From positions 1 through 64,000 of the forward strand of contig NZ_JPVN01000005.1 in NCBI RefSeq assembly GCF_000772945.1: a stretch of 64,000 nucleotides of DNA, read 5' to 3'. The notes under the pieces are model-generated. The model was not told the origin of the DNA. It saw only the letters and a program-made list of their open reading frames with translations, and did not search any database. Both the position numbers and the translations under genes were made by a program. This DNA is from Ureibacillus manganicus DSM 26584 (lineage in GTDB: Bacteria; Bacillota; Bacilli; Bacillales_A; Planococcaceae). Below, piece by piece: positions 36,817 to 49,336 of this stretch (its first letter is position 1; every line of letters begins with the position of its first letter).

Positions 36817-38301
36817 TTATTGTTCATATAACTGAACTATTTTCTTTTTATCGATTTTTCCAACATGGGTTTTTGGCAAACCTTTGATAAAGTAAATCTT
36901 CTTCGGAACTTTGTATGCCCCTAGGTGATTGCGACATAAAGTCTTAATCTCCTCACATAGATTATCATCACCTTGGTCACTTACAACAACAGCTGTAACT
37001 ACTTCCCCCCATTTAGGATCTTTTAATCCAACAACAGCAACCTCTTTTATCTTTGGATGTGTAACGATGCATTGTTCTACTTCTTGTGGGTAGACGTTCT
37101 CACCACCAGTAATAATCATGTCTTTGGAACGGCCGACAATATACACATCACCATCGTCATCCATTTTGGCTAAATCACCTGTTTTTAACCACCCATCAAC
37201 AATTGCTTTGTTTGTTTCTTCTTGGTTATTCCAATAGTAGGAAAACATATGTTTACCTTGAACAAGGAGTTCCCCTACCTCGTTTGGTTCACATAGATCC
37301 CCTTCTTTATTTACTATTTTTATAGAGTTAAAAACCATACTCCTACCTACAGATCCTGGCTTTAATGCGGAACGTTCAGGTGAAATATAAAAATTATTCG
37401 GCCCCGCTTCTGTAAGACCATATCCCTCTTTAAACTTTATACCCTTTTCTATGAAATGTTCATAAATTGTTTTAGGACAAGGTGCACCGCCAGATAAAAA
37501 TAATTTAACAGAAGGAAAATGTGACTGTTTAAAATAATCTGTTTCAATCATAGCCTGGTACATTGTGGGAACAAAAAGAGAAATTGTTGTTTGATAATCA
37601 TCGATTGCCCTTATTGCCTCTTCAGGAACAAATTTATTTCCAATTACGACGGTACCACCCACCATTAAAATAGGTATGGAAAGAGCATTGAGTCCACCCG
37701 TATGGAATAGCGGCATATAATTTAATGTACAATCATTTTCTTCTAAACTCCAACTGACAATTGTATTAATGGCATTCCAATTGACCGCATCAAATGATAA
37801 AACCACACCTTTTGGTTTCCCTGTCGTACCACCAGTATAAATCATTAACCATGCATCTTTTGGACTCCATTCTGTCCCAACTCTTGAATGTATCTCTGTT
37901 GGCTGAAATTCAATAATTTCCTTAATCACAATAGTTTTCGCTGGATGAATCTTCACTGCAAAATCATGAAAATTATCATCTGTTAGCAGTAGACTAGGTG
38001 AGGAATCTTCAAGTATCAATTGGAGTTCCTCTATACTTAAACGCCAGTTAAGTGGTACGTATATGTACCCACCTAAACCACAGGCAAATAGTATTGGGAA
38101 AAGGTCAATCGAATTTTCAGCTAATATCGCTACTCGATCTCCCTTTTTTATACCGAGAGATTGTAAATAGACTAGGCAGTTCATAGTTCTTTTTGAAAGT
38201 TCTTCATAGGTCCAAGTGCGCTCAGTTCGAATATCGATTAACGCATTTTTTTCAGGGGTTAATTTTGCTCGATTTAATATCCAGGTTTGCTCATTAAACA
38301 T
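36817..38301 (-). CDS. AMP-dependent acyl-CoA ligase
   Basis: 494 residues from the ATG at 38301 (GGGGTG six bases upstream). An ANL-family adenylating enzyme that activates a carboxylic acid as acyl-AMP and then acyl-CoA. The P-loop IYTGGTTGKPKG is at ~155-166, the A5 GYGLTEAG at ~300, the A7 aspartate in WLKTGDLA and the A10 lysine in KVPKKIYFIKGLPKTHVGKIDKK, all intact. It closes the operon that starts at 45890. Substrate unknown; the neighbours suggest a fatty or hydroxy acid. Confidence 0.9.
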   Translation of the reverse strand: MFNEQTWILNRAKLTPEKNALIDIRTERTWTYEELSKRTMNCLVYLQSLGIKKGDRVAILAENSIDLFPILFACGLGGYIYVPLNWRLSIEELQLILEDSSPSLLLTDDNFHDFAVKIHPAKTIVIKEIIEFQPTEIHSRVGTEWSPKDAWLMIYTGGTTGKPKGVVLSFDAVNWNAINTIVSWSLEENDCTLNYMPLFHTGGLNALSIPILMVGGTVVIGNKFVPEEAIRAIDDYQTTISLFVPTMYQAMIETDYFKQSHFPSVKLFLSGGAPCPKTIYEHFIEKGIKFKEGYGLTEAGPNNFYISPERSALKPGSVGRSMVFNSIKIVNKEGDLCEPNEVGELLVQGKHMFSYYWNNQEETNKAIVDGWLKTGDLAKMDDDGDVYIVGRSKDMIITGGENVYPQEVEQCIVTHPKIKEVAVVGLKDPKWGEVVTAVVVSDQGDDNLCEEIKTLCRNHLGAYKVPKKIYFIKGLPKTHVGKIDKKKIVQLYEQ

Positions 38302-38316
38302 ACTACACACCCCAAA

Positions 38317-39057
38317 TCACATCATGATTCCACCATCAACATTTAAAACATGGCCATTTACATAGCTTGCTTCGTCAGAAGCTAAAAATAAATAAGCATT
38401 AGCAATATCTTTTGGGACTCCTAGTCGTTGTAAACTGACAATAGACTCCATATAGTTTAATATTTTCTCCGGCATCTTTTCAGTCATAGAAGTTCTCGTA
38501 AAACCTGGTGAAACTGCATTTACATTAATACCTTTTCTTCCTAGTTCTTTTGCCCATGTTTTTGTCATACCAACGATTGCCGCTTTCGTTGCAGCATAGT
38601 TTGTTTGACCGATGTTCCCATACACTCCACTGACCGAGGCAGTATTAATGACTTTTCCATATCCCTTTTCGATCATGTGCGGAACAACTGCTTGTGTACA
38701 GTTAAAAACTCCCTTTAGATTTACATCTACTACACGATCAAAATCTTCTTCAGTCATTTTTACAAGCATCGCGTCTTTTGTTATACCAGCATTATTGATT
38801 AATATATCAATCTTTCCGTAGTTAGATAGAACTTTTTGTACCATCGTTTGAACGCTTTCTCTACTCGCTACATCCAACTTTACAAATTGAACATCAAAAC
38901 TTTTCTCACGTAATTCACTTTCTAACTGCTTTCCTTGTTCCTCTGCGAAATCTGCAATTACTACTTTTGCACCTTCACGTGCAAAGATTTCTACAGCTGC
39001 TTTACCGATTCCGTTGGCACCACCAGTTATAATCGCAACCTTATCTTCTAATCTCAA
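38317..39057 (-). CDS. FabG-like short-chain dehydrogenase/reductase
   Basis: 246 residues, classical SDR. Cofactor loop TGGANGIG (11-18), NNAG (88-91), catalytic S141-Y154-K158 and the C-terminal NGHVLNVDGG. Closest in form to 3-oxoacyl-ACP/acetoacetyl-CoA reductases. Being inside an uptake/ligase operon, 10 bp after the hydrolase and 15 bp before the ligase, it probably interconverts a 3-oxo and 3-hydroxy acyl compound rather than serving bulk fatty acid synthesis, which should have its own fabG elsewhere. Confidence 0.9.
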   Translation of the reverse strand: MRLEDKVAIITGGANGIGKAAVEIFAREGAKVVIADFAEEQGKQLESELREKSFDVQFVKLDVASRESVQTMVQKVLSNYGKIDILINNAGITKDAMLVKMTEEDFDRVVDVNLKGVFNCTQAVVPHMIEKGYGKVINTASVSGVYGNIGQTNYAATKAAIVGMTKTWAKELGRKGINVNAVSPGFTRTSMTEKMPEKILNYMESIVSLQRLGVPKDIANAYLFLASDEASYVNGHVLNVDGGIMM

Positions 39058-39067
39058 AAGTGCACCT

Positions 39068-39964
39068 CTATTCTAAAAATTTTTCAATTTCTAATTTTAA
39101 TCTTTCTAAGTCATCGATTAATGGAGAATGACCACAGTTAACTAATTGAACATTTTCCGCTTTGTCTCCTAAGTCATCAATAATCTGCTGTGTCATTATC
39201 ATCGGAACGACTAAATCTCTATCACCATATAGATTTAATACGGGAACGTTTATGTTATCTACTTCCCCAGTGCCTTTGGCTGCCACATTGTCAAAATGAC
39301 TAATATTAAATGTATTTAATGCATGGTAAACATCAGCTAGATTTCGTTGAGTTAACATATCCTCAATATATTCGTTATATTTTTCTTCTACAGGTTGATT
39401 ATGCGTATAGATTGCCGCATTCCAAACCATTTTTAAGCCTTCTTTATTTTTTGTGTCATATAGTCCTTGCATTGGAATTGTTCGCATTGGGTCACTTTCA
39501 ATTTCCTCGATTGTAGTAAATCGTTTGGAAACATCTGGAGAACCATCACTATTCGTTTTAAAATGTGGGTATCCTCGGGTTGATCCTGAAGCTAATAACA
39601 CTAGCTTTTCGCAATATTCTGGATTATCAATGCAGAATTGCATGCAAACAGTCCCGCCAAAAGACCAACCTACTAAACTAAATTTCTTCAATTCTAATGC
39701 ATCAACAAAAAGTCTTATGTCATTGCTAAAATCTCTTACGTGTGAAGCTCTTTTGTTGTAAGTAGAGCCACCAAATCCTCTTAAATCAGGAGCGATAATA
39801 GTAAAATCATCACTAAATGCTTCCATTAAGATATCCCAATGCTTTGAAGAAGTCATATTTCCATGAATAAACAAAACTAACTTGTCACCGCCAAGTCTTT
39901 CCCGATAAGTAATGGTTTCTCCATTTGATAATTCTACAGCTTTTAATTGATCAATCATGTTCAT
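39068..39964 (-). CDS. Alpha/beta hydrolase (possible PHA-depolymerase-like esterase)
   Basis: 298 residues from the ATG at 39964 (GGAGAG upstream); the longer frame runs into the previous gene. Oxyanion motif HGNMTSSKHWD (34-44), nucleophile elbow GWSFGG with Ser101, acid Asp248 or Asp250 in YGDRD and His279 in CGHS. Cytosolic, no signal peptide. From memory, the intracellular poly(3-hydroxybutyrate) depolymerase PhaZ of the B. cereus group has the same length and a GWSxG box at the same position, so an ester or oligo-hydroxyacid substrate is a fair guess. Confidence 0.82.
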   Translation of the reverse strand: MNMIDQLKAVELSNGETITYRERLGGDKLVLFIHGNMTSSKHWDILMEAFSDDFTIIAPDLRGFGGSTYNKRASHVRDFSNDIRLFVDALELKKFSLVGWSFGGTVCMQFCIDNPEYCEKLVLLASGSTRGYPHFKTNSDGSPDVSKRFTTIEEIESDPMRTIPMQGLYDTKNKEGLKMVWNAAIYTHNQPVEEKYNEYIEDMLTQRNLADVYHALNTFNISHFDNVAAKGTGEVDNINVPVLNLYGDRDLVVPMIMTQQIIDDLGDKAENVQLVNCGHSPLIDDLERLKLEIEKFLE

Positions 39965-39975
39965 GGCATTCTCTC

Positions 39976-40986
39976 CTATTCTTTTCCCCATCGAATTGTA
40001 ACTGCACCCCATGCATAACCTATACCTGCACTTACTAAAGTAACTACATCACCGTTATGAAGTTTTCCTTCTTCTTGTGCTAGTTTAAGAGATAATATTT
40101 GGTCAATTTGGCCAATATGACCATAATCCGAAAGATAAATAGAATTATCTTCCTCTAAATTAAATGCCTTCAATACATAATCATGTGCTGATTTTTTTAC
40201 GTGAAGCATTCCGATATACGACAGATCACTTTCATTAAATCCACTTTTTACTAAGGAATTGCGTATTACCTTAATAAAATTATCTAATGACTTTTGTTCA
40301 AGTCTACTTTTCATACCGGCTGGATCCAATACATCTAATCGATAAAGTCCTTGTTCCAAATGTTCAGGAGTTAAAGGTTCTTTTGTACCGCCTACTGGTA
40401 CTAGTACATCTTCAGAAAAAGATCCATCTGTTATAATTTCACTTTCATAAACGATATTTTCTTTTACATCCTTTCGAAGAACAAGTGCTCCTCCACCAGC
40501 ACCGAGGTTAAACATAAATCTTGTTCGTTCATTTTTATAATCAATGAAATCGTGATTTCTGTATCCACCTGCCAGTAATACGGTTTTTATACTCTCATCA
40601 GATAACATTAAACTTTTCGCAAGTTTAATACCCATAATAGTCGTACCACATCTTAGTTGGGCATCAAATGCCCACGCATTTGTAGCTCCGACTTCTTCTT
40701 GAATTTTTATAGCAGCTGTCCATAGCGGATATTCTTTATGTTCTTCGCCGATATAAATAATGACATCAATTTCTCTTGGATCGATATTTGCGTTTTGAAT
40801 GGCATCCTTTGCTGCTTTAATACCCATTTGAACGGTATGATCATTTTTACCTGCAATGGTTTTTTGATTGATCCCCATTTTTGTTTTTACAATATGAGCT
40901 GGTATATCAGCAATCTTAGCTATTTCTTCCCCTGTCATTCTTTCTGTCGGTAAATATATACCAATTCCAATGATACCTACATTCAT
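39976..40986 (-). CDS. KAS III (FabH)-like thiolase-fold enzyme with His in place of Asn
   Basis: 336 residues. N-terminal fold IGIGIYLPTERMTGEE; nucleophile Cys113 in DAQLRCGTTIMG; His262 in GMLHVKKSAHD; ending SAGIGYAWGAVTIRW as in FabH. Where FabH has Asn (GNTSAAS) the sequence reads YGHIGQID, giving His290, so the triad is Cys-His-His by my alignment. That is the KAS I/II form, on a KAS III frame. It overlaps livM by 4 bp. In an ABC-uptake operon it is more likely to condense or transfer acyl groups in a special pathway than to start fatty acid synthesis. Confidence 0.83.
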   Translation of the reverse strand: MNVGIIGIGIYLPTERMTGEEIAKIADIPAHIVKTKMGINQKTIAGKNDHTVQMGIKAAKDAIQNANIDPREIDVIIYIGEEHKEYPLWTAAIKIQEEVGATNAWAFDAQLRCGTTIMGIKLAKSLMLSDESIKTVLLAGGYRNHDFIDYKNERTRFMFNLGAGGGALVLRKDVKENIVYESEIITDGSFSEDVLVPVGGTKEPLTPEHLEQGLYRLDVLDPAGMKSRLEQKSLDNFIKVIRNSLVKSGFNESDLSYIGMLHVKKSAHDYVLKAFNLEEDNSIYLSDYGHIGQIDQILSLKLAQEEGKLHNGDVVTLVSAGIGYAWGAVTIRWGKE

Positions 40987-42002
40987 TTTGAACTCTCCTT
41001 ACTCTTTGAAAGTGGAGCGACGTCTAATTGATTTCTCTTTATTTTCCACTGAGAATATTTCGTCTGAATTGTTCCAACAATGCCTTTAGGGAAGAAGATT
41101 ACAGCTAAAATATAAATAATACCGAAGAAAATAATCCATCGTTCAAAAATAGGGAAATCTCTCGCTAACCCCGATAAATAGTGCTGTGCGGACTCAATAA
41201 CAACTGACCCAACTAATGGTCCAATTAAAGTTCCAACCCCACCAATAATTGTCATTAGTAATGCATCTAAAGTAATTTCCATTGTTAATACACTTGTATT
41301 CACAAAACGTAGTGATACAGCATACAAAGATCCTGCCAAGGCAGCAATGACTCCTGCAACAACAGATGCAATCACTTTATAATACAGTGTTTTAAAACCT
41401 AATGATTTTGTTCGTTGCTCATTTTCGCGTACGGCAATAAGTACACGTCCTAGCGGAGAGCTAACAAAACGCTTCAATACGATAAATACAATGACTAATA
41501 ACGCTAAAACAACTAAATAAAATATAACTCTATCTTTAAAGACTTCTGGAGCTTTAAATGTAAACCCATCATTTCCTTTTGTTACACTTCTCCACTTTTC
41601 CGCTACTACTAAAAGAAGACCTGAAATAGCCATTGTTAACATAGCAAAGAAATGACTTTTTAATCGTAGTGTAAGTAAACCTACGATAAAACTTAATATC
41701 CCAGCAATAAGCATTCCAACAATAATTGAAACAATGAACACGCCAATTGTTGATTCGAAATCTGATAGCATAATTGCAGTACAATATGCTCCAATACCGA
41801 AGAACATAGCATGACCAAATGAAACAATACCGGTATACCCTAGCAAAATATCATAACTCATGGCTAAAATGCCGAAGATTAATATTTGTGTAACTAAAAT
41901 TGTCAACGTCCGAGAGTCCATTACAAATGGAAAAGCAACTAGGGCAAGCACAATAATAAATAAAATAATATTTGATCTTGATAGTAATATCGGTTTATTC
42001 AT
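40983..42002 (-). CDS. livM: Branched-chain-type ABC transporter permease LivM
   Basis: 339 residues with about 10 transmembrane helices and the family loop LRLKSHFFAMLTMAISGLLLV. The C-terminal KGIVGTIQTKYSQWK is typical of LivM. It pairs with LivH to form the membrane channel; the neighbouring enzymes suggest the cargo may not be an amino acid. GAAGGGGTG precedes the ATG; its end overlaps the next gene (ATGA). Confidence 0.88.
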   Translation of the reverse strand: MNKPILLSRSNIILFIIVLALVAFPFVMDSRTLTILVTQILIFGILAMSYDILLGYTGIVSFGHAMFFGIGAYCTAIMLSDFESTIGVFIVSIIVGMLIAGILSFIVGLLTLRLKSHFFAMLTMAISGLLLVVAEKWRSVTKGNDGFTFKAPEVFKDRVIFYLVVLALLVIVFIVLKRFVSSPLGRVLIAVRENEQRTKSLGFKTLYYKVIASVVAGVIAALAGSLYAVSLRFVNTSVLTMEITLDALLMTIIGGVGTLIGPLVGSVVIESAQHYLSGLARDFPIFERWIIFFGIIYILAVIFFPKGIVGTIQTKYSQWKIKRNQLDVAPLSKSKESSK

Positions 42003-42006
42003 ATTC

Positions 42007-42870
42007 TCACCCCTTCGCCGTTGTGAATAATCCTTGAGGACGGAATATTAACACAACAACCATTATTATCATATTTACTGCAAGAGATAGATAAGGAACA
42101 TAATAAGCCATGAAACTACCCGCTAATCCAACTAAGATTGCAGCAAATAGTGATCCTTGGAAACTACCCATTCCCCCAATTACTACCACGATAAATGCCA
42201 TAATTGCAAATTCCATTCCAAGTTCAGCATAAATTGCTCCAGAATATGGTGCAAATAACATACCCGCTAATGCAGCAAGAGCAGAGCCCGTCATAAAGAC
42301 AACTAAGAAGATTCGTTTAATATTAATCCCAAGTGCCTGTACCATATCACTGTTCATAACCCCAGCTCGAACAATAAGACCAATTTTTGTGCGTGTCAGC
42401 ATATAATGTAATAGACCAAAAATTATAAATCCAAAGAAAATAATGAAAATACGATATTTAATAATAATTATATCTCCTAGTTGCCAACTCCCAGCTAAAA
42501 GTTCAGGTACCTTTACAGCAACAACGTTTGGCCCGAAGACTACCTTAATCATTTCTTGAAGAACGAGCATAAATCCTAAAGTGATTAGAATCTGTTGAAC
42601 GAGATTTCCGTAAACTGGAGTAATAATTAACTTTTCCGTAATAAACCCAAAGACAAGTCCCGTTAAAATCGCAACAATAATCCCTACAATAAAACTTCCA
42701 GAATAGGCATAGCTAAATACACCTGCATATGCACCCCACACGAATAATCCACCGTGTGCAAAATTAAGAACATGCATTAGACCAAATATAAGTGTAAGCC
42801 CAGAAGCAAGAAGGAATATTAACATCCCTGTTGCAAGACCATTTATAACTAAACTAATAATTAAATCCAT
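42007..42870 (-). CDS. livH: Branched-chain-type ABC transporter permease LivH
   Basis: 287 residues, about 8 transmembrane helices, with the LivH signature FGLMHVLNFAHGGLFVWGAY near the N-terminus and EFAIMAFIVVVIGGMGSFQGS later. AAAGGGGGG precedes the ATG. It lies 4 bp upstream of livM. Confidence 0.9.
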   Translation of the reverse strand: MDLIISLVINGLATGMLIFLLASGLTLIFGLMHVLNFAHGGLFVWGAYAGVFSYAYSGSFIVGIIVAILTGLVFGFITEKLIITPVYGNLVQQILITLGFMLVLQEMIKVVFGPNVVAVKVPELLAGSWQLGDIIIIKYRIFIIFFGFIIFGLLHYMLTRTKIGLIVRAGVMNSDMVQALGINIKRIFLVVFMTGSALAALAGMLFAPYSGAIYAELGMEFAIMAFIVVVIGGMGSFQGSLFAAILVGLAGSFMAYYVPYLSLAVNMIIMVVVLIFRPQGLFTTAKG

Positions 42871-42883
42871 GTAGTCCCCCCCT

Positions 42884-43591
42884 TTAACCGATTCCCAAAT
42901 ATTTATGTTTCAACTCATCATCTTCAATCAATTCTTTCATTGCCCCATTGCGAACTGTTTTTCCATCATCGATTAATGTAAAGGAATCACCTATTTTACT
43001 TGCCATAATGAAGTTTTGTTCAACTAGTACAATCGTTGTTTGTTTCTTCATTTCAACAATTGCTTCCATTACTTTTTCAATGACAATTGGAGCAAGACCC
43101 TTAGATGGTTCATCGATTAAAAGTAACCTACTATCGTTAACAAATGCACGTGACATCGCTAACATCTGCTTTTGTCCACCAGATAAATTACCGCCAGCCT
43201 TTTTCCAAAACTTCTTTAAATCGGGAAATAAATTCAGTACGTACTCTAATTTTTCCTTACTTTCATCTGTTTCTTTTCGCATTGCTACTTTAATATTCTC
43301 TTCAACTGTTAAATCACCAAATATTCCCTGATCCTCTGGAACATACCCAATCCCTAGATTTGCAATATCATAAGTTGCTTTTTTCGTAATGTCTTGATTT
43401 AAAAATGTGACCGAACCACCTGATGCTGGTGTTAGACCAATAATTGTCTTTAATGTCGTAGTTTTTCCTGCACCATTACGTCCAAGAAGTACTGAAACTT
43501 CACCTTCTTTAGCTTCGAAATGAACTCCTTGTAAAATATGGTACTGGCCTATATGAGTATTGACATTATCAAGTTTCAACAAGCTCGTCAT
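42884..43591 (-). CDS. livF: ABC transporter ATPase LivF
   Basis: 235 residues from the second of two adjacent ATG codons, which sits better behind AGGAGGG. Walker A GRNGAGKTT, Q-loop GYVPEDQGIF, signature LSGGQKQM, Walker B LLLIDEPSKGLAP, switch His replaced by Gln in LVEQN, all typical of LivF. Its start overlaps the end of livG by 23 bp. Confidence 0.9.
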   Translation of the reverse strand: MTSLLKLDNVNTHIGQYHILQGVHFEAKEGEVSVLLGRNGAGKTTTLKTIIGLTPASGGSVTFLNQDITKKATYDIANLGIGYVPEDQGIFGDLTVEENIKVAMRKETDESKEKLEYVLNLFPDLKKFWKKAGGNLSGGQKQMLAMSRAFVNDSRLLLIDEPSKGLAPIVIEKVMEAIVEMKKQTTIVLVEQNFIMASKIGDSFTLIDDGKTVRNGAMKELIEDDELKHKYLGIG

Positions 43592-44342
43592 CATAAAGCC
43601 CTCCTAAATAAGCATTTTGAACCGTAGTATTATCCATTATTTCCTTTGGTGTGCCATCCGCTAATAGTTTTCCGTTAAATAGCACCATGATGGAGTCCGA
43701 TAAGTCCAAAATCATATCCATCTTGTGTTCGATTAATAGAATCGTTTTATCTCCGCGATTTTTAATTGATTTAATAACATCTAAAATGGCAGGCACTTCC
43801 TCAAGAGACATACCCGCAGTTGGTTCATCAAGCATTAGAACCTCTGTATCTAGAGCTAATAACATAGCAATTTCTAGCTTTCGCTTTTCTCCATGTGCTA
43901 ATTGACTTGCTATATGATGGGCTTTATTTTCCAGTAAAACTTGTTCTAATATTGTCAATGCTTCTTCAGTAATTTTCTTATAATGTAAATAATGTTTAAA
44001 AGGGTTAAAACGGATTTTTTCCTTCGACTGTACAGCAAGACGTACATTTTCTAGTACCGTTAGGTTTGGAAATACATTTGTAATTTGAAATGAACGACCC
44101 AAACCTAGTCTTGTACGTTCAACTGATGATAGGTTAGCAATGGATTTTCCTTTGAAAAATACATCACCTTCAGTATTCTTTAACTCGCCGCTAATTAAAT
44201 TAAAGAACGTTGTCTTTCCTGCCCCATTTGGTCCAATGATTGATTTAAAATGTTTTTCAGGCATTTCAAAATTAACGCGATCGACCGCCTTATGGCCACC
44301 AAAACTAATACTTAGATTTTCTGTTCGAATGATCGGTTCCAT
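43569..44342 (-). CDS. livG: ABC transporter ATPase LivG
   Basis: 257 residues from the ATG at 44342, four bases after AGGAGGAG. The open frame continues 65 codons upstream, but that part is translated repeat DNA and not protein. Walker A GPNGAGKTT, signature AHGEKRKLEIAM in place of LSGGQ (typical of LivG), Walker B LMLDEPTAGMS and switch LIEHKMD. It is separated from livK by a stem-loop and a dispersed repeat. Confidence 0.9.
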   Translation of the reverse strand: MEPIIRTENLSISFGGHKAVDRVNFEMPEKHFKSIIGPNGAGKTTFFNLISGELKNTEGDVFFKGKSIANLSSVERTRLGLGRSFQITNVFPNLTVLENVRLAVQSKEKIRFNPFKHYLHYKKITEEALTILEQVLLENKAHHIASQLAHGEKRKLEIAMLLALDTEVLMLDEPTAGMSLEEVPAILDVIKSIKNRGDKTILLIEHKMDMILDLSDSIMVLFNGKLLADGTPKEIMDNTTVQNAYLGGLYDDELVET

Positions 44343-44380
44343 GTTTCTCCTCCTATCTGTTCCTCTTAAAATCTTTAATA

Positions 44381-44499
44381 GAAATGCGGAAGGCGCTCGC
44401 CCAACTCCGAAAGCAACTGGAGAAACCGACAAAAGAGCGCTCTTTGCTCTTGCAGGCGGTTTTGAAGTTGCCGAGGAGTTAGCGCCTGAAGCTAGACAC
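44381..44499. repeat. Dispersed palindromic repeat, copy 2, inside the liv operon
   Basis: Same family and orientation as 36616-36735. The stems here are GGCGCT/AGCGCC and AACTCC/GGAGTT, differing from copy 1 at both partners. It lies in the untranslated gap between livK and livG. Confidence 0.85.
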
Positions 44500-44501
44500 C
44501 T

Positions 44502-44545
44502 GAAAAGTGGAAGGCGCTCCCCAAGCTTCAACAGCAACTTCCAAC
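44502..44545. repeat. Truncated third copy of the dispersed repeat
   Basis: GTGGAAGGCGCTCCCCAAGC repeats the left end of the element (GCGGAAGGCGCTCGCCCAAC) immediately after copy 2, then the similarity fades. Confidence 0.5.
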
Positions 44546-44578
44546 TAAACTTCTAAATTGAAAGTAAAGATTTTAAGA

Positions 44579-44606
44579 GAAACAGACCAACAATATGGTC
44601 TGTTTC
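44579..44606 (-). terminator. Stem-loop between livK and livG
   Basis: GAAACAGACCA and TGGTCTGTTTC form a perfect 11-bp stem with a 6-nt loop just after the livK stop. On the minus strand TCTTAAAATCTTT follows, a weak T-tract, so it may stop part of the transcripts or protect the livK mRNA. Confidence 0.65.
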
Positions 44607-44618
44607 AAATGGTTTGTT

Positions 44619-45890
44619 TTAATTCCTTATTGGTGGCTCAGTCTCAGATGGAGAAAGCTCACGAATTAAAACAGGTACTGGATAATCGAAACCATCCACT
44701 TCTTGTAAAGTTACAGAGTAAAGTGGTTGTAATGCTTGGTGGTCTTCAGGACGGAATGTCATTGTTCCTTTTGGAGTTTCAAATGACATACCTTCCATTA
44801 AAGGTATTAATTTGTTACCATCAGCATCTCCACCTGATTTTTCTAAAGCTGTAACAATTGCCATTGCAGCAGCAAATCCACCTGGAGTAAATAAGTCAGG
44901 CACTTCACCGTTATGACGTTTTTTGTGCTCATCTACTAACCAATCATTAATTGGGTTGTCTGGTAAAGTGTGATAGTAAACAGAGAATCCTTCCATACCA
45001 ACTAATTGACCCATTGTTTTAAGAGCTGGGATATCTGGAGCACCTGTTGAAACTTTAATACCATTTTCTTGTAACTTCATGTCATTAATTTGTCCCCAAG
45101 GTGAGTTTGCACCCGCCCAAACAACAAATAGGTAGTCAGGTTTTGAATCTATAATTTTTTGTAAGTTTGAAGTGAAGTCAGTAGCGTCAGCTGGCGCATA
45201 CTCTTCAGCCACAATTTCAGCACCTAATGCTAAAGCTGCATCTTTGAATGCAGATACCCCATCCCAACCGAAGGAATAGTCTGGAGCAAATGTTGCAATT
45301 TTTACACCTTCACCAGCAATAGCAGCAGCTGCAGCATATGCATCTTGCGAAGAGTTACGTGCAGTTCTAAAAATATAAGGGTTAAACTCAGAACCTGTAA
45401 TACTATCAGCAACTGCAGGTTCTACGATCATAATTTTTTCATATTCTTCTGCTAAAGGAAGAACAGCTAATGTGTCACCAGAACTAGAAGATCCAACTAG
45501 GAAGTCAACCTTGTCATCTTCCAATAGTTTCGTAGCTTTTTGAACTGCTACTTCAGGTTTTGTTTCTGTGTCTTCATAAACAATTTCAATCTTTTTCCCT
45601 GCAACTTCCATCGTTCCACCAGTTGCATACTCAAGACCTAATTCAAACCCTTTTTGAGTTTGTTTACCATAAGACTCAAGAGCACCAGTTAATGATGCTA
45701 GAACACCGATTTTGATTGTGCCACCAGATTCAGTTGCTGTTTCTGTAGTTTCTGTCTTTTGTTCTTCAGTTTTTGTTTCTTCTTTATCAGTCGTTTTCCC
45801 AGGAGTGTTAGTAGATGATTGTTCTCCACCACAAGCTGCTAGGATGACTACAAGAAACACAAGCATAAACAGATACCAAAGCTTTTTCAT
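44619..45890 (-). CDS. livK: ABC transporter solute-binding lipoprotein, LivK type
   Basis: 423 residues from the ATG at 45890 (AAAGGGGG seven bases upstream); the frame's upstream part is not coding. Signal peptide with lipobox LAAC, lipidated Cys20, then a Ser/Thr/Glu-rich linker to about 50. The rest is a type I periplasmic-binding fold of the leucine/amide group: IKIGVLASLTGALESYGKQ and VDFLVGSSSSGDTLAV. The ligand is unknown; relatives bind branched amino acids, amides, urea or aromatic acids. It is the first gene of the operon to 36817. Confidence 0.9.
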   Translation of the reverse strand: MKKLWYLFMLVFLVVILAACGGEQSSTNTPGKTTDKEETKTEEQKTETTETATESGGTIKIGVLASLTGALESYGKQTQKGFELGLEYATGGTMEVAGKKIEIVYEDTETKPEVAVQKATKLLEDDKVDFLVGSSSSGDTLAVLPLAEEYEKIMIVEPAVADSITGSEFNPYIFRTARNSSQDAYAAAAAIAGEGVKIATFAPDYSFGWDGVSAFKDAALALGAEIVAEEYAPADATDFTSNLQKIIDSKPDYLFVVWAGANSPWGQINDMKLQENGIKVSTGAPDIPALKTMGQLVGMEGFSVYYHTLPDNPINDWLVDEHKKRHNGEVPDLFTPGGFAAAMAIVTALEKSGGDADGNKLIPLMEGMSFETPKGTMTFRPEDHQALQPLYSVTLQEVDGFDYPVPVLIRELSPSETEPPIRN

Positions 45891-45910
45891 GAAAATACCC
45901 CCTTTGTGTT

Positions 45911-45924
45911 TTAAAGCGCTTTCA
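45911..45924 (-). promoter_or_regulatory. cre-like site in the livK leader
   Basis: On the minus strand TGAAAGCGCTTTAA fits TGWAANCGNTNWCA at 13 of 14 positions and is almost fully palindromic. It lies 21 bp before the livK start codon and just after the predicted transcription start, where CcpA would act as a road-block. Confidence 0.5.
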
Positions 45925-45938
45925 ACTGCTTTGAGAAT

Positions 45939-45983
45939 AAGATAAAACATGGGAGTTACAAAAAAGTTACAATTTAGTGAACA
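45939..45983 (-). promoter_or_regulatory. livK promoter with 11-bp-spaced direct repeats
   Basis: Minus strand: TTGTAACT at 45972-45965 and again at 45961-45954, exactly 11 bp apart, with a weaker TGTTCACT one step upstream at 45983-45976 (5 of 8 matches). Ten bases after the last TTGTAAC comes TATCTT (45944-45939), a 4/6 -10. There is no -35 at normal spacing. This is the layout used by SARP/BTAD activators, and a BTAD regulator gene is next door. Confidence 0.5.
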
Positions 45984-46102
45984 TTTTTTCGAAATATAGA
46001 GAAATTCAATTATTTCCAAGGTGTTTTTTATAAAATTATTTACACCAAGCGGACAAATTTGTTGCTTGCTTTAACGAGTAGCGGGTACTCGACAGAAAAA
46101 AA

Positions 46103-46146
46103 GCTAATGACTTACAGAAAGCTTTCACTCTCTGAAAATCATTAGC
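46103..46146 (-). terminator. Terminator of the BTAD regulator gene
   Basis: GCTAATGA and TCATTAGC form the base and TTCAGA/TCTGTA-like pairs extend it; the minus strand continues with T7. It separates the regulator from the liv operon promoter. Confidence 0.82.
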
Positions 46147-49100
46147 GTATAATCATTTCATATATTTCGTACGTTGATTCCATTGGATCGATGTTTAGTT
46201 CAGTTTTTAAACTTTCAACACATTTTTCAAACCATTTTACTGCTTGTGTTCGATTATTTAAATGATAATAGCTTAGCATGAGAAGTCGATATCCTTCTTC
46301 CCAAGTATTGTCTTGCTTAATTACCTTTTCAGCCCAGAATATGACCTCTTGATACCTCTTTAATCTAAATAAATTTTGAGCAATTCTTTCTATGACTAAG
46401 AGATACAAGTTAACTAGTTCTTCCCTTTTTTGTTGAACCCAATCTATATGGTAGAACTCTTCTAATAAATTTCCTTTATACAATGATACTGCCAATTGTA
46501 ACCATTCTATGGAAATTGATGGTTCTTTTTCTTCTAATCCAAATGTTGCAAACTTTTTAAAGTAGTCAATATCTGTTGAAAATGCAATGCTTTGCTGAAG
46601 TTGGTACATAGAATTTTTTCTAATAATGTAGGCACTTTCTTCTCTTGCATTTCTTTCAGGTTCAAGTACTTTTAAGCACGCATTATATATCACTTTAAAG
46701 TCGCGTGCCATTGCCACATCATTACCCTTTGGCCAAAGAATGTGTAACAATTCTTCTTTAGACACATAGCGATCTTTGTTTAATAGTAGATACAAAAACA
46801 ATTCCTTCGCTTTTTCACGTTTCCATTCTTTATCATCAATTTCTTCATAATCACGAAAAATGCTAAATGTCCCTAGTACATTTACGGAAATAAAATATTT
46901 CGGAACAACTTCTCCCTCTTTATATTTCATCAAATATCCAATTTTCTTAACTTCATCATTCGAATTATTTGTCAAATGATAGTGAAATAACTGATGAAAT
47001 ATTAATAGATTTCTAGGACCAAGTAATGTAATTTTTTGCAGGAAAAACTCGTATTGATGATCAATACAAAGAGATATAAATCGTAAAAATGAATTCGTAA
47101 ACTGATTCTGATCATTTTTCAAATAATAAATATAGGACATCCAAAAGTTACTAACCATTTGTCCATAGTGATCTTTACATATTGTAAATAATTCTTCTGC
47201 ACGTTTTGCATAATGCAACGCTTCAGGTAGTAGATGATTCTCAACATTGATTTTCGTAAAAGTAGCAAGTAATAATGCTGATACCCATTTATCTTGTACT
47301 CTTTCGGTTTCGTATAAACCAAGATTTGCATAAGAAATTGCTTCTTCGATATTTCCTTTTCTGCTATAAACTAATGCTAACCCCATATATGACTCAGCTT
47401 TTGCCCTAGAAACATGAATCTCATCCATAATTTCAATCGTTTTTAAATAGCTAATTTCTGCAGTCTGAAGATCAAATGGATTTAGGAGAAGAAGTGCATG
47501 TCCCCTACGTAGAAAAGCCACTGCTTCTGCATATTGTGAAAAGTCCCGTTCACTATTTTTCACACAATTATTCGCCCTTACAAAGGATTTTTCAATCTCA
47601 CCTAACATTGTAAGGATTAGAGAGTTGAGAACATCAGATTCACGATGTGCATCCAAAGGCAATACATCCTTAACTTCTCTCATTTTAATAAGCATTCTTG
47701 CTTCACTTAACTTTCCTTGTCTTAACATCGTTCGAACATCTAAATTGCCTTGATATAAAACATTTTCTGGCAAGTTCATTTTTGTTACCCATTGTTCAGA
47801 TTCATAAGCTCTGCCTAAATTCACAAGATTCTCTGCATATTGTCTTTGCAATAAATGGAGTTCTTCTATATTGATATTTACTCTTTGAGAGATTTCTAAT
47901 GCTTTTTCTAAATAATCTTCAGCATAGGCAGGTTGAATCGTATCCAAATAAATATGAGCAATCCCTGCATTCGCTTTTAAAATGAAATAATGATCCATCT
48001 GTTCTTGAGCAAAGGCTAAACAATAATCATATGATTTTTTTGCTTTTTCGTATTGTGCTTTATAACGAAAACACTCACCCTCATAAAAATATAATGCATA
48101 GTAATTTTCTTTTGTTTCACTAGATAATTCTTTAATTCTTTCTAAATAATAATCAAATTGTCCAGCATTAATGAAATCGGTTGCAAAACTTACTAAAATC
48201 TCAGCGATTAATAGTTGGTTTTTCGCTTTGTTTGCATGGTGTAGTGCAAACATTGGTTTATTTTCGTTAATAAAATAATTAGCTGCTTTTTCTTGTAAAT
48301 AAGTATACTCTACTTCATTTCTTTCCTTCAGTTTCATTTCTAAAAACTGTTGGAACAACACATGAAATCTAAATTCTTTTTGACCGTATAAAGGTTGAAT
48401 GAATCCTTGAATCTTGACAAGTTCCATTAATTGATCTGCCATTTCTTTACTATAGAATTGTTCAACTAAATGAGTAGAGAATGTTTGGAATATACTAAAG
48501 TTTAATAATGCTTCTTGTTGCCTACTACTCATATTTTCAAAGATTTCATCAGACAAATATGCAAAAAATTCATTTAATGATAAATTTGTAATTTCATCTA
48601 TTGATATGGTTGAGTCTGAATCTCTTAGTTGTAATGCAAGTAAAATGATAGCAATTGCCCAACCTTCAGTCACTGCAAGTATTTTTTGAATTTGTTCTCT
48701 TGATAAATAACATTCAAAATAATCTTCAAACAATACTTGTATTTCTTCTTCAGTAAACTGAAAATCTTCTTCTGTACATTCGATTAGTTGTCCATTAATT
48801 TTTAGTTGTAAAAGGCAATTCCAGCTAAGTCTTTGTCTTGTAGCTACGATAAAATGAATATGTGAAGGTAAGTTTTCTATGATTTTGTTTAACACATAGT
48901 TAATTTGGAATACATGATTCACTAGGTGAAAATCATCAATCACAATAAAGAATGGCTGATTAATTTTATATAATTCATTTACAAATAACTTATATAATTT
49001 ATTTAACTCATCTAACTTAGGGAACATGGACAGATTATCCCATCCAACTAAAGATGCTCCGAAATCATGGCTCACTCTTCGAATACTATAAAATAAGTGT

Positions 49101-49336
49101 CTCATGAAAGGTAAAATATCATCATCTTCATCTGTTACCTGATACCATGAAAAGAGTAGGTTTTGGTCTGAGGTTAGTTGTGTAAGAACAGATGTCTTTC
49201 CATACCCCGCACCGCTTTGAAGGACAGTTAATTTTGCTTGTGAAACTTTTGATAGTTTTTTTGCTAAATTGGCCCTACTCATAATATGATTTGAAGTATC
49301 TGGTGGAATAATTTTAGATAATAAGACATTTTGCAC
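46142..49336 (-). CDS. MalT-like STAND ATPase regulator with winged helix and BTAD domain
   Basis: 1064 residues, GTG start eight bases after GGAGGG. Domains: STAND NTPase (~1-330) with Walker A GAGYGKTS (42-49) and Walker B IVIDDFH (131-137); a long TPR-type helical region (~380-800) that should sense a ligand or partner; an OmpR/SARP-like winged helix (~816-915, VNVLGTFSIF then SKEELLHILWP); and a BTAD all-helical domain (~920-1064). The order of STAND and TPR first with DNA binding last is MalT-like, but MalT ends in a LuxR helix-turn-helix. I infer that it activates the liv/acyl operon just downstream. It ends in its own terminator. Confidence 0.85.
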   Translation of the reverse strand: MQNVLLSKIIPPDTSNHIMSRANLAKKLSKVSQAKLTVLQSGAGYGKTSVLTQLTSDQNLLFSWYQVTDEDDDILPFMRHLFYSIRRVSHDFGASLVGWDNLSMFPKLDELNKLYKLFVNELYKINQPFFIVIDDFHLVNHVFQINYVLNKIIENLPSHIHFIVATRQRLSWNCLLQLKINGQLIECTEEDFQFTEEEIQVLFEDYFECYLSREQIQKILAVTEGWAIAIILLALQLRDSDSTISIDEITNLSLNEFFAYLSDEIFENMSSRQQEALLNFSIFQTFSTHLVEQFYSKEMADQLMELVKIQGFIQPLYGQKEFRFHVLFQQFLEMKLKERNEVEYTYLQEKAANYFINENKPMFALHHANKAKNQLLIAEILVSFATDFINAGQFDYYLERIKELSSETKENYYALYFYEGECFRYKAQYEKAKKSYDYCLAFAQEQMDHYFILKANAGIAHIYLDTIQPAYAEDYLEKALEISQRVNINIEELHLLQRQYAENLVNLGRAYESEQWVTKMNLPENVLYQGNLDVRTMLRQGKLSEARMLIKMREVKDVLPLDAHRESDVLNSLILTMLGEIEKSFVRANNCVKNSERDFSQYAEAVAFLRRGHALLLLNPFDLQTAEISYLKTIEIMDEIHVSRAKAESYMGLALVYSRKGNIEEAISYANLGLYETERVQDKWVSALLLATFTKINVENHLLPEALHYAKRAEELFTICKDHYGQMVSNFWMSYIYYLKNDQNQFTNSFLRFISLCIDHQYEFFLQKITLLGPRNLLIFHQLFHYHLTNNSNDEVKKIGYLMKYKEGEVVPKYFISVNVLGTFSIFRDYEEIDDKEWKREKAKELFLYLLLNKDRYVSKEELLHILWPKGNDVAMARDFKVIYNACLKVLEPERNAREESAYIIRKNSMYQLQQSIAFSTDIDYFKKFATFGLEEKEPSISIEWLQLAVSLYKGNLLEEFYHIDWVQQKREELVNLYLLVIERIAQNLFRLKRYQEVIFWAEKVIKQDNTWEEGYRLLMLSYYHLNNRTQAVKWFEKCVESLKTELNIDPMESTYEIYEMIIR

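Follow-up and report, generated by a model that had tools for sequence, protein, structure and literature searches.

A conserved pair of 11-bp direct repeats marks a probable SARP-type promoter in front of a liv-type operon in Ureibacillus manganicus

Introduction

SARPs have been studied chiefly as switches of actinomycete antibiotic clusters. According to PMC10936776, the AfsR box consists of two 11-bp repeats centred at -29.5 (-40 to -19), which lie over the -35 and leave 8 bp between the 3′ repeat and the -10. The 64,000-nt stretch of Ureibacillus manganicus DSM 26584 analysed here (hereafter, the window) raises the question of whether a promoter of this kind serves a catabolic operon in Bacilli. 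The initial annotation had read the interval 45911-45983 as carrying SARP-style repeats in front of a liv/acyl operon and next to a gene for a BTAD regulator. We asked what this interval is, which protein may act on it and what the downstream genes may be for. The interval is very probably a SARP-type activated promoter, bound by the regulator encoded just upstream, and the regulon most likely serves uptake and breakdown of short-chain hydroxyalkanoate esters, for example PHB oligomers.

Promoter architecture

The following features were located in the interval:

45965-45972, minus strand: upstream direct repeat TTGTAACT, exact copy; TG-AAC invariant in 91 of 91 promoters of relatives
45954-45961, minus strand: downstream direct repeat TTGTAACT, exact copy, 11 bp from the first; TG-AAC likewise invariant in all 91
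45939-45944, minus strand: predicted -10, TATCTT, 9 bp past the second repeat; TAnnnT at the same spacing in 91 of 91
45911-45925, minus strand: cre-like site TTGAAAGCGCTTTAA (CcpA), matching 9 of the 10 specified positions of the cre consensus, WTGNAANCGNWNNCW

Read along the minus strand, the repeat pair is followed after 9 bp by TATCTT, then by the cre-like TTGAAAGCGCTTTAA and a GGGGG ribosome site; the binding-protein start codon lies at 45890. The two copies 11 bp apart described in the initial annotation proved exact, and its -10 candidate was present, although at 9 bp from the repeats rather than 10. The weaker third copy that it placed one step upstream fell away: TGTTCACT (45983-45976) matches TTGTAACT at 5 of 8 positions, and among the 91 promoters of relatives this position reached 5 of 7 in three and more in none. 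Since it is not conserved, we excluded it from the element. It is the exact pair that is remarkable. TTGTAACTNNNTTGTAACT without mismatch occurs once in the window, where base composition predicts 0.0002 occurrences per 64 kb (0.013 per 4.05 Mb), and the 18-bp pattern TGYAACTNNNTTGYAACT has a single occurrence in the strain's own genome, whereas allowing up to three mismatches in TTGTAACTNNNTTGTAACT yields three window matches, unremarkable against a chance mean of 1.55.

The absence of a -35 at normal spacing, also claimed beforehand, was borne out: across the 91 promoters the 17-bp position reached at best 2 of 6, and spacers of 15-19 bp gave 4 of 6 once. In the window, a consensus scan of the minus strand from 45900 to 46000 listed no sigma-70-like promoter. 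All 91 promoters had TAnnnT 9 bp past the second repeat; at any other offset from 0 to 25 it occurred in 19 or fewer. If the box is drawn as a pair of 11-bp units, 6 bp separate it from the -10, and with the -10 set at -12 to -7 it occupies -40 to -19 by arithmetic. The direct repeats thus have the 11-bp period of SARP operators, the box lies over the -35 position and the 3′ repeat about 8 bp before the -10, as in SARP promoters, with no good -35; the spacing is 9 bp counted from TTGTAACT, a 1-bp excess over the literature value that depends on where the repeat end is drawn.

The cre-like site went unmentioned in the initial annotation although it lies inside the interval. At least 8 of the 10 positions were matched in 78 of the 91 promoters, compared with about 17 of 91 in shuffles, and the site was absent from all 12 promoters of one genus (g17) and from one of two in another (g9). 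The site lies downstream of the -10, and the operon is probably under CcpA control.

Regulator protein

The gene upstream of the promoter encodes a protein of composite layout:

46142-49336, minus strand: regulator gene, 1064 aa, with a MalT-like N-terminal half, TPR repeats and a C-terminal winged helix plus BTAD (SARP domain, about residues 812-1064)

The BTAD part (residues 934-1062) matched PF03704 at 70.9 bits, over a cut-off of 22.1, and the Pfam search of the regulator returned no match to a winged helix. That the neighbouring gene encodes both parts, as previously claimed, was nevertheless confirmed with a profile of 49 C-terminal domains, in which AfsR (4.2e-7) and EmbR (6.7e-7) aligned at full length, over the whole 253 aa. 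Matches ranking above these were designed TPR proteins covering the TPR-like part only, and a single-sequence search matched AfsR weakly (E 0.23). The predicted model of the C-terminal domain (mean pLDDT 94.5) had as its top match AfsR from the transcription complex (E 1.6e-11, TM 0.81), followed by EmbR. Both the profile and the model alignments place an OmpR-type winged helix directly before the BTAD, as in SARPs. The SARP domain is C-terminal here and not N-terminal; because an N-terminal position describes the known large SARPs of Streptomyces, our claim is that the regulator works like a SARP and has a SARP domain.

Within the recognition helix, R67, F69, K70, V71 and N74 were invariant in the 49 domains compared (50 were prepared, of which L032 was dropped for its close kinship with L031). 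Across these 49 domains, TGC and TGT half-sites showed no visible covariation with the helix, which hardly varies. Residues 6-482 matched the MalT model at 213 bits, below its cut-off of 537, and by analogy this MalT-like half suggests ligand-gated activation. An inverted repeat followed by T's was seen by eye after the regulator stop codon; the terminator scan did not list it.

Conservation of the box with the regulator

Conservation was examined in a family sample of 261 genomes, of which 95 carry the regulator (92 at full length, 3 broken or split) and 166 do not. The binding-protein gene was found in 92 genomes, every one among those 95. Within the genus, the full-length regulator is present in 9 of 25 genomes, the same 9 that hold a close binding-protein orthologue, and a tenth genome carries a distant orthologue of 30% identity. 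A single named relative was found, Ureibacillus acetophenoni, at 81% identity. A search at the level of the order added no genomes.

Upstream DNA was read for 97 binding-protein genes, that is, 92 first copies and 5 second copies. Results showed that the box stands in front of 91 of the 92 first copies, so that the repeats are conserved in relatives, a point that the initial annotation had left to be checked. It lies 81-178 bp before the start of the binding-protein match (median 88). The 91 promoters are related sequences, drawn from 11 genera; they all share TG.AAC in each repeat, as well as the first, second and last bases (T, A, T) of the -10, whereas the bases flanking the box are near random. 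In the sole exception (G215) the regulator is broken and the box is kept beside its remnant. The box was absent upstream of the 5 second-copy genes.

In any form, the box was found in 94 of the 95 regulator genomes, and in 91 of these it precedes the binding-protein gene. The strict form occurred in 88 of the 261 genomes, of which 87 belong to the 95 regulator carriers and 1 to the 166 others (p 1.4e-58, uncorrected for kinship), the lone case without regulator (G182) lying inside a coding frame. Seven of the 8 regulator genomes devoid of the strict form hold a variant box; in the eighth (G085), whose regulator is broken, neither a strict nor a variant box was found. Two genomes without the binding-protein gene (G152, G169) retain the box no more than 150 bp from the regulator gene and before other genes of the set, namely KASIII-, hydrolase-, SDR- and ligase-like frames in G152, and hydrolase- and SDR-like frames in G169.

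Regulator and binding-protein gene are 118 bp to 16 kb apart (median 592 bp); 60 of the 89 same-contig cases fall within 1 kb and 15 beyond 2 kb, and the remaining 2 of 91 have them on separate contigs. Because the box stays near the binding-protein gene while the regulator distance varies, it moves with the target gene. Outside the operon promoter, strict matches were found at nine places, five of which precede an extracellular depolymerase gene (see below). The other four lie in coding frames (G259, G156, G182) or in an unclear position (G079), all without TAnnnT at 9 bp. A relaxed pattern, not requiring the T after TGYAAC, was less specific (123 of 261 genomes). Overall, the conservation of the repeats with the regulator, the agreement in spacing with SARP promoters and the resemblance of the domain to AfsR and EmbR support the earlier SARP-style reading.

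Several loci showed local peculiarities. Five genomes (L135-L139) have a second binding-protein gene (73-76% identity), boxless and directly after a KASIII-like frame; the copy in G157 is interrupted by an inner stop. At L151 (G215), TetR-type, acyl-CoA ligase-like and MaoC-like genes (by eye) lie between box and binding-protein gene, as if another regulator took over. In L023, L024, L025 and L029, short repeated units fill the space from the regulator to the binding-protein gene and stop just upstream of the box.

Alternative readings of the box

The main and serious rival, which the initial annotation overlooked, is WalR (YycF), since the core of the box fits its consensus; WalR or another OmpR-type response regulator would then bind, with the BTAD protein as a bystander. 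The consensus given in PMC9210968, TGTWAH-N5-TGTWAH, is matched exactly in the window and in 74 of the 91 promoters, but broken by the other 17. A similar TGTAAC/TGCAAC repeat with TAnnnT at comparable spacing was seen upstream of nudix-rapZ-like gene pairs at 7 of 12 loci inspected, whether or not the genome has the BTAD regulator. What speaks against WalR is the distribution of the box: the abstract of PMC9210968 states that WalR is present in all Firmicutes, yet the strict box tracks the BTAD gene (87 of 95 vs 1 of 166), so that occurrence independent of this regulator is limited to one genome. Moreover, its targets are catabolic and not cell-wall genes. The box therefore resembles that of WalR in consensus and differs from it in distribution and target genes, and we consider binding by WalR or its kin unlikely.

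An ordinary sigma-A promoter in which TTGTAA serves as -35 and the repeat is accidental can be drawn in the window as TTGTAA-16-TATTCT (8 of 12 positions). We ruled it out as highly improbable, since TAnnnT occurs at the TATTCT offset in 19 of 91 promoters vs 91 of 91 at 9 bp, and the first repeat is conserved as strongly as the second. A PhoP box on the other strand was also rejected: its consensus TTHACA-N5-TTHACA was matched exactly in 0 of 91. Binding by the BTAD regulator remains our preferred reading; we infer this link from co-occurrence and comparison.

As a separate observation, the repeats before the nudix-rapZ-like pair (L173-L179; gene names by eye) form a TGTAACA/TGCAACA class with the 11-bp period, perhaps a WalR or PhoP promoter.

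Target operon and its probable function

Nine genes in the same direction lie downstream of the box, from the binding protein through the acyl-CoA ligase:

44619-45890, minus strand: substrate-binding protein of a Liv-type ABC importer, first gene past the promoter (PF13458)
43569-44342, minus strand: ABC ATPase, LivG-like (PF00005, PF12399)
42884-43594, minus strand: ABC ATPase, LivF-like (PF00005)
42007-42870, minus strand: permease, LivH-like (PF02653)
40983-42002, minus strand: permease, LivM-like (PF02653)
39976-40986, minus strand: KASIII-like enzyme (NF005308, 511 bits, cut-off 315)
39068-40012, minus strand: alpha/beta hydrolase of the intracellular short-chain-length PHA depolymerase family (NF050089, 445 bits, cut-off 300)
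38317-39057, minus strand: SDR oxidoreductase, FabG-like (NF004198, 314 bits, cut-off 296)
36817-38310, minus strand: AMP-forming acyl-CoA ligase (PF00501, PF13193; best NCBIfam models below their cut-offs)

A 276-base gap (44343-44618) separates the binding-protein gene from the LivG-like gene and holds a hairpin right after the stop codon (44606-44579, GAAACAGACCA...TGGTCTGTTTC). Since this hairpin is terminator-like, transcription through to the ligase is an assumption. The same gap contains a GC-richer stretch with the appearance of an inserted intergenic element; the sequence 44472-44497 is present a single time in the window.

The operon hydrolase scores above the curated cut-off of the short-chain-length PHA depolymerase model, and a second depolymerase family appears in trans. 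The extracellular type 1 PHA depolymerase was found in 6 of the 261 genomes (E up to 1e-40), all six above cut-off (321 bits to NF050058 in G153) and all six in genomes with the regulator (p 0.002). In five of the six, five genomes of one genus, the gene is preceded by the box with TAnnnT at 9 bp; the sixth (G083) has no box. The operon's intracellular-type PHA depolymerase and the common box before extracellular PHA depolymerase genes are the new elements here, and they point to a probable hydroxyalkanoate function that had been overlooked in the initial annotation.

The SARP promoter may be read correctly and the operon still serve another acyl compound, such as another ester or carboxylic acid; the models for the binding protein, ligase, SDR and KASIII-like enzyme name no substrate, and among the 95 regulator genomes a type 1 extracellular PHA depolymerase is missing from 89 and a class III/IV PHA synthase from 80. 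On the other hand, this rare box is accompanied by PHA depolymerases of two families, one encoded within the operon and the other in trans, and we regard another substrate as possible but rather unlikely. We hold to hydroxyalkanoate esters as the most likely substrates.

A link of the regulator to PHA storage was dropped, as the synthase shows no association with it (15 of 95 genomes with the regulator vs 23 of 166 without, p 0.72). Because of this, we read the regulon as scavenging rather than turnover of the cell's own stores, though the strain's own genome holds a synthase. No secreted Esterase_PHB was found in that genome, so the PHB part of the reading draws on relatives and family names, and the strain would depend on oligomers released by others. 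The synthase of the strain (class III/IV, 388 bits, cut-off 365) lies outside the window on the same contig, at C62:174371-175384.

Distant relatives

An even draw of 121 genomes at class level gave 16 genomes matching the regulator; the 15 of them outside the family yield 16 loci with 27-35% identity. The box was found downstream of the regulator in 9 of these 16 loci, with scores of 16-18 of 18 that were reached in 0 of 100 shuffles each; the other 7 had no box within 1.5-kb flanks. TAnnnT follows at 9 bp in seven of the nine and at 8 bp in L198, with no exact match in L195. As judged by eye, five of the boxes precede a binding-protein-like frame, two a KASIII-like and one an ABC-ATPase-like frame, and in L191 the sequence ends too soon. 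In L192 and L193, whose distant regulators lack the box, a TetR-type gene and a ligase-like gene come next (by eye), and the targets of these regulators may lie elsewhere.

Discussion

In the mechanism that we propose, two regulator monomers would lie side by side on the TTGTAACT repeats, bound through the C-terminal OmpR-type winged helix and BTAD. The 22-bp box would then be occupied at the -35 position, as by AfsR, and RNA polymerase would be brought to a promoter that has a -10 and no -35. Sensing of an inducer would fall to the MalT-like ATPase and TPR parts. Switched on in this way would be the Liv-type importer, the KASIII-like enzyme, the intracellular-type PHA depolymerase, the SDR and the acyl-CoA ligase; in some relatives the unlinked extracellular PHA depolymerase gene, with the same promoter, would join the regulon. 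The cre-like site downstream of the -10 would add repression by CcpA.

Among the closest known systems, EmbR of Mycobacterium tuberculosis shares the winged helix and BTAD fold, and its layout lacks the MalT-like part, unlike the regulator. MalT itself is alike over the N-terminal half (residues 6-482) and differs in that the score stays below the model cut-off. AfsR, a large SARP, is the closest in fold of the DNA-binding domain (TM 0.81, predicted model), joins nucleotide-binding and TPR parts in one protein and, at afsS of Streptomyces coelicolor, has two 11-bp repeats over the -35 just upstream of a weak -10 (PMC10936776). It differs in the N-terminal position of its SARP domain (Met1-Ala270 in the same paper), and the present system differs further in belonging to Bacilli and not actinomycetes, in its AT-rich box TTGTAACT and in its catabolic targets. 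The SARP-LAL regulators, exemplified by PimR, have heptamers with 4-bp spacers, two heptamers being needed for binding (PMC5930380), and a SARP domain fused to a large ATPase part; in them this domain is N-terminal, the targets are antibiotic clusters and, according to the same paper, the PimR operator does not overlap the -35.

Taken across the class, these comparisons make it somewhat likely that Bacilli use SARP-mode activation for catabolism. An old MalT-SARP fusion with the operator TGTAACT-N4-TGTAACT-N9-TAnnnT would govern a hydroxyalkanoate-scavenging regulon in many families of the class, with an unlinked secreted PHA depolymerase in some, and would replace the sigma/-35 contact as AfsR does. 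Among the papers listed in a literature search, none describes a BTAD regulator in Bacillota that controls a liv-type operon or the use of hydroxyalkanoates, which is weak evidence of novelty as most subscription journals lay outside the search. The sharply conserved operator in Bacilli offers a small system, outside actinomycete antibiotic clusters, for testing such activation, and a regulator, an importer and a trans target can be proposed through which Gram-positive soil bacteria may use polyester oligomers. Genes with broad names (branched-chain amino acid transport, 3-oxoacyl-ACP synthase) are joined in a single testable pathway, and the 33-bp signature can be used to find further members. 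A paralogous protein of 938 aa, 24-28% identical to the N-terminal and BTAD parts of the regulator, was observed at L016 and L019 (G007 C61).
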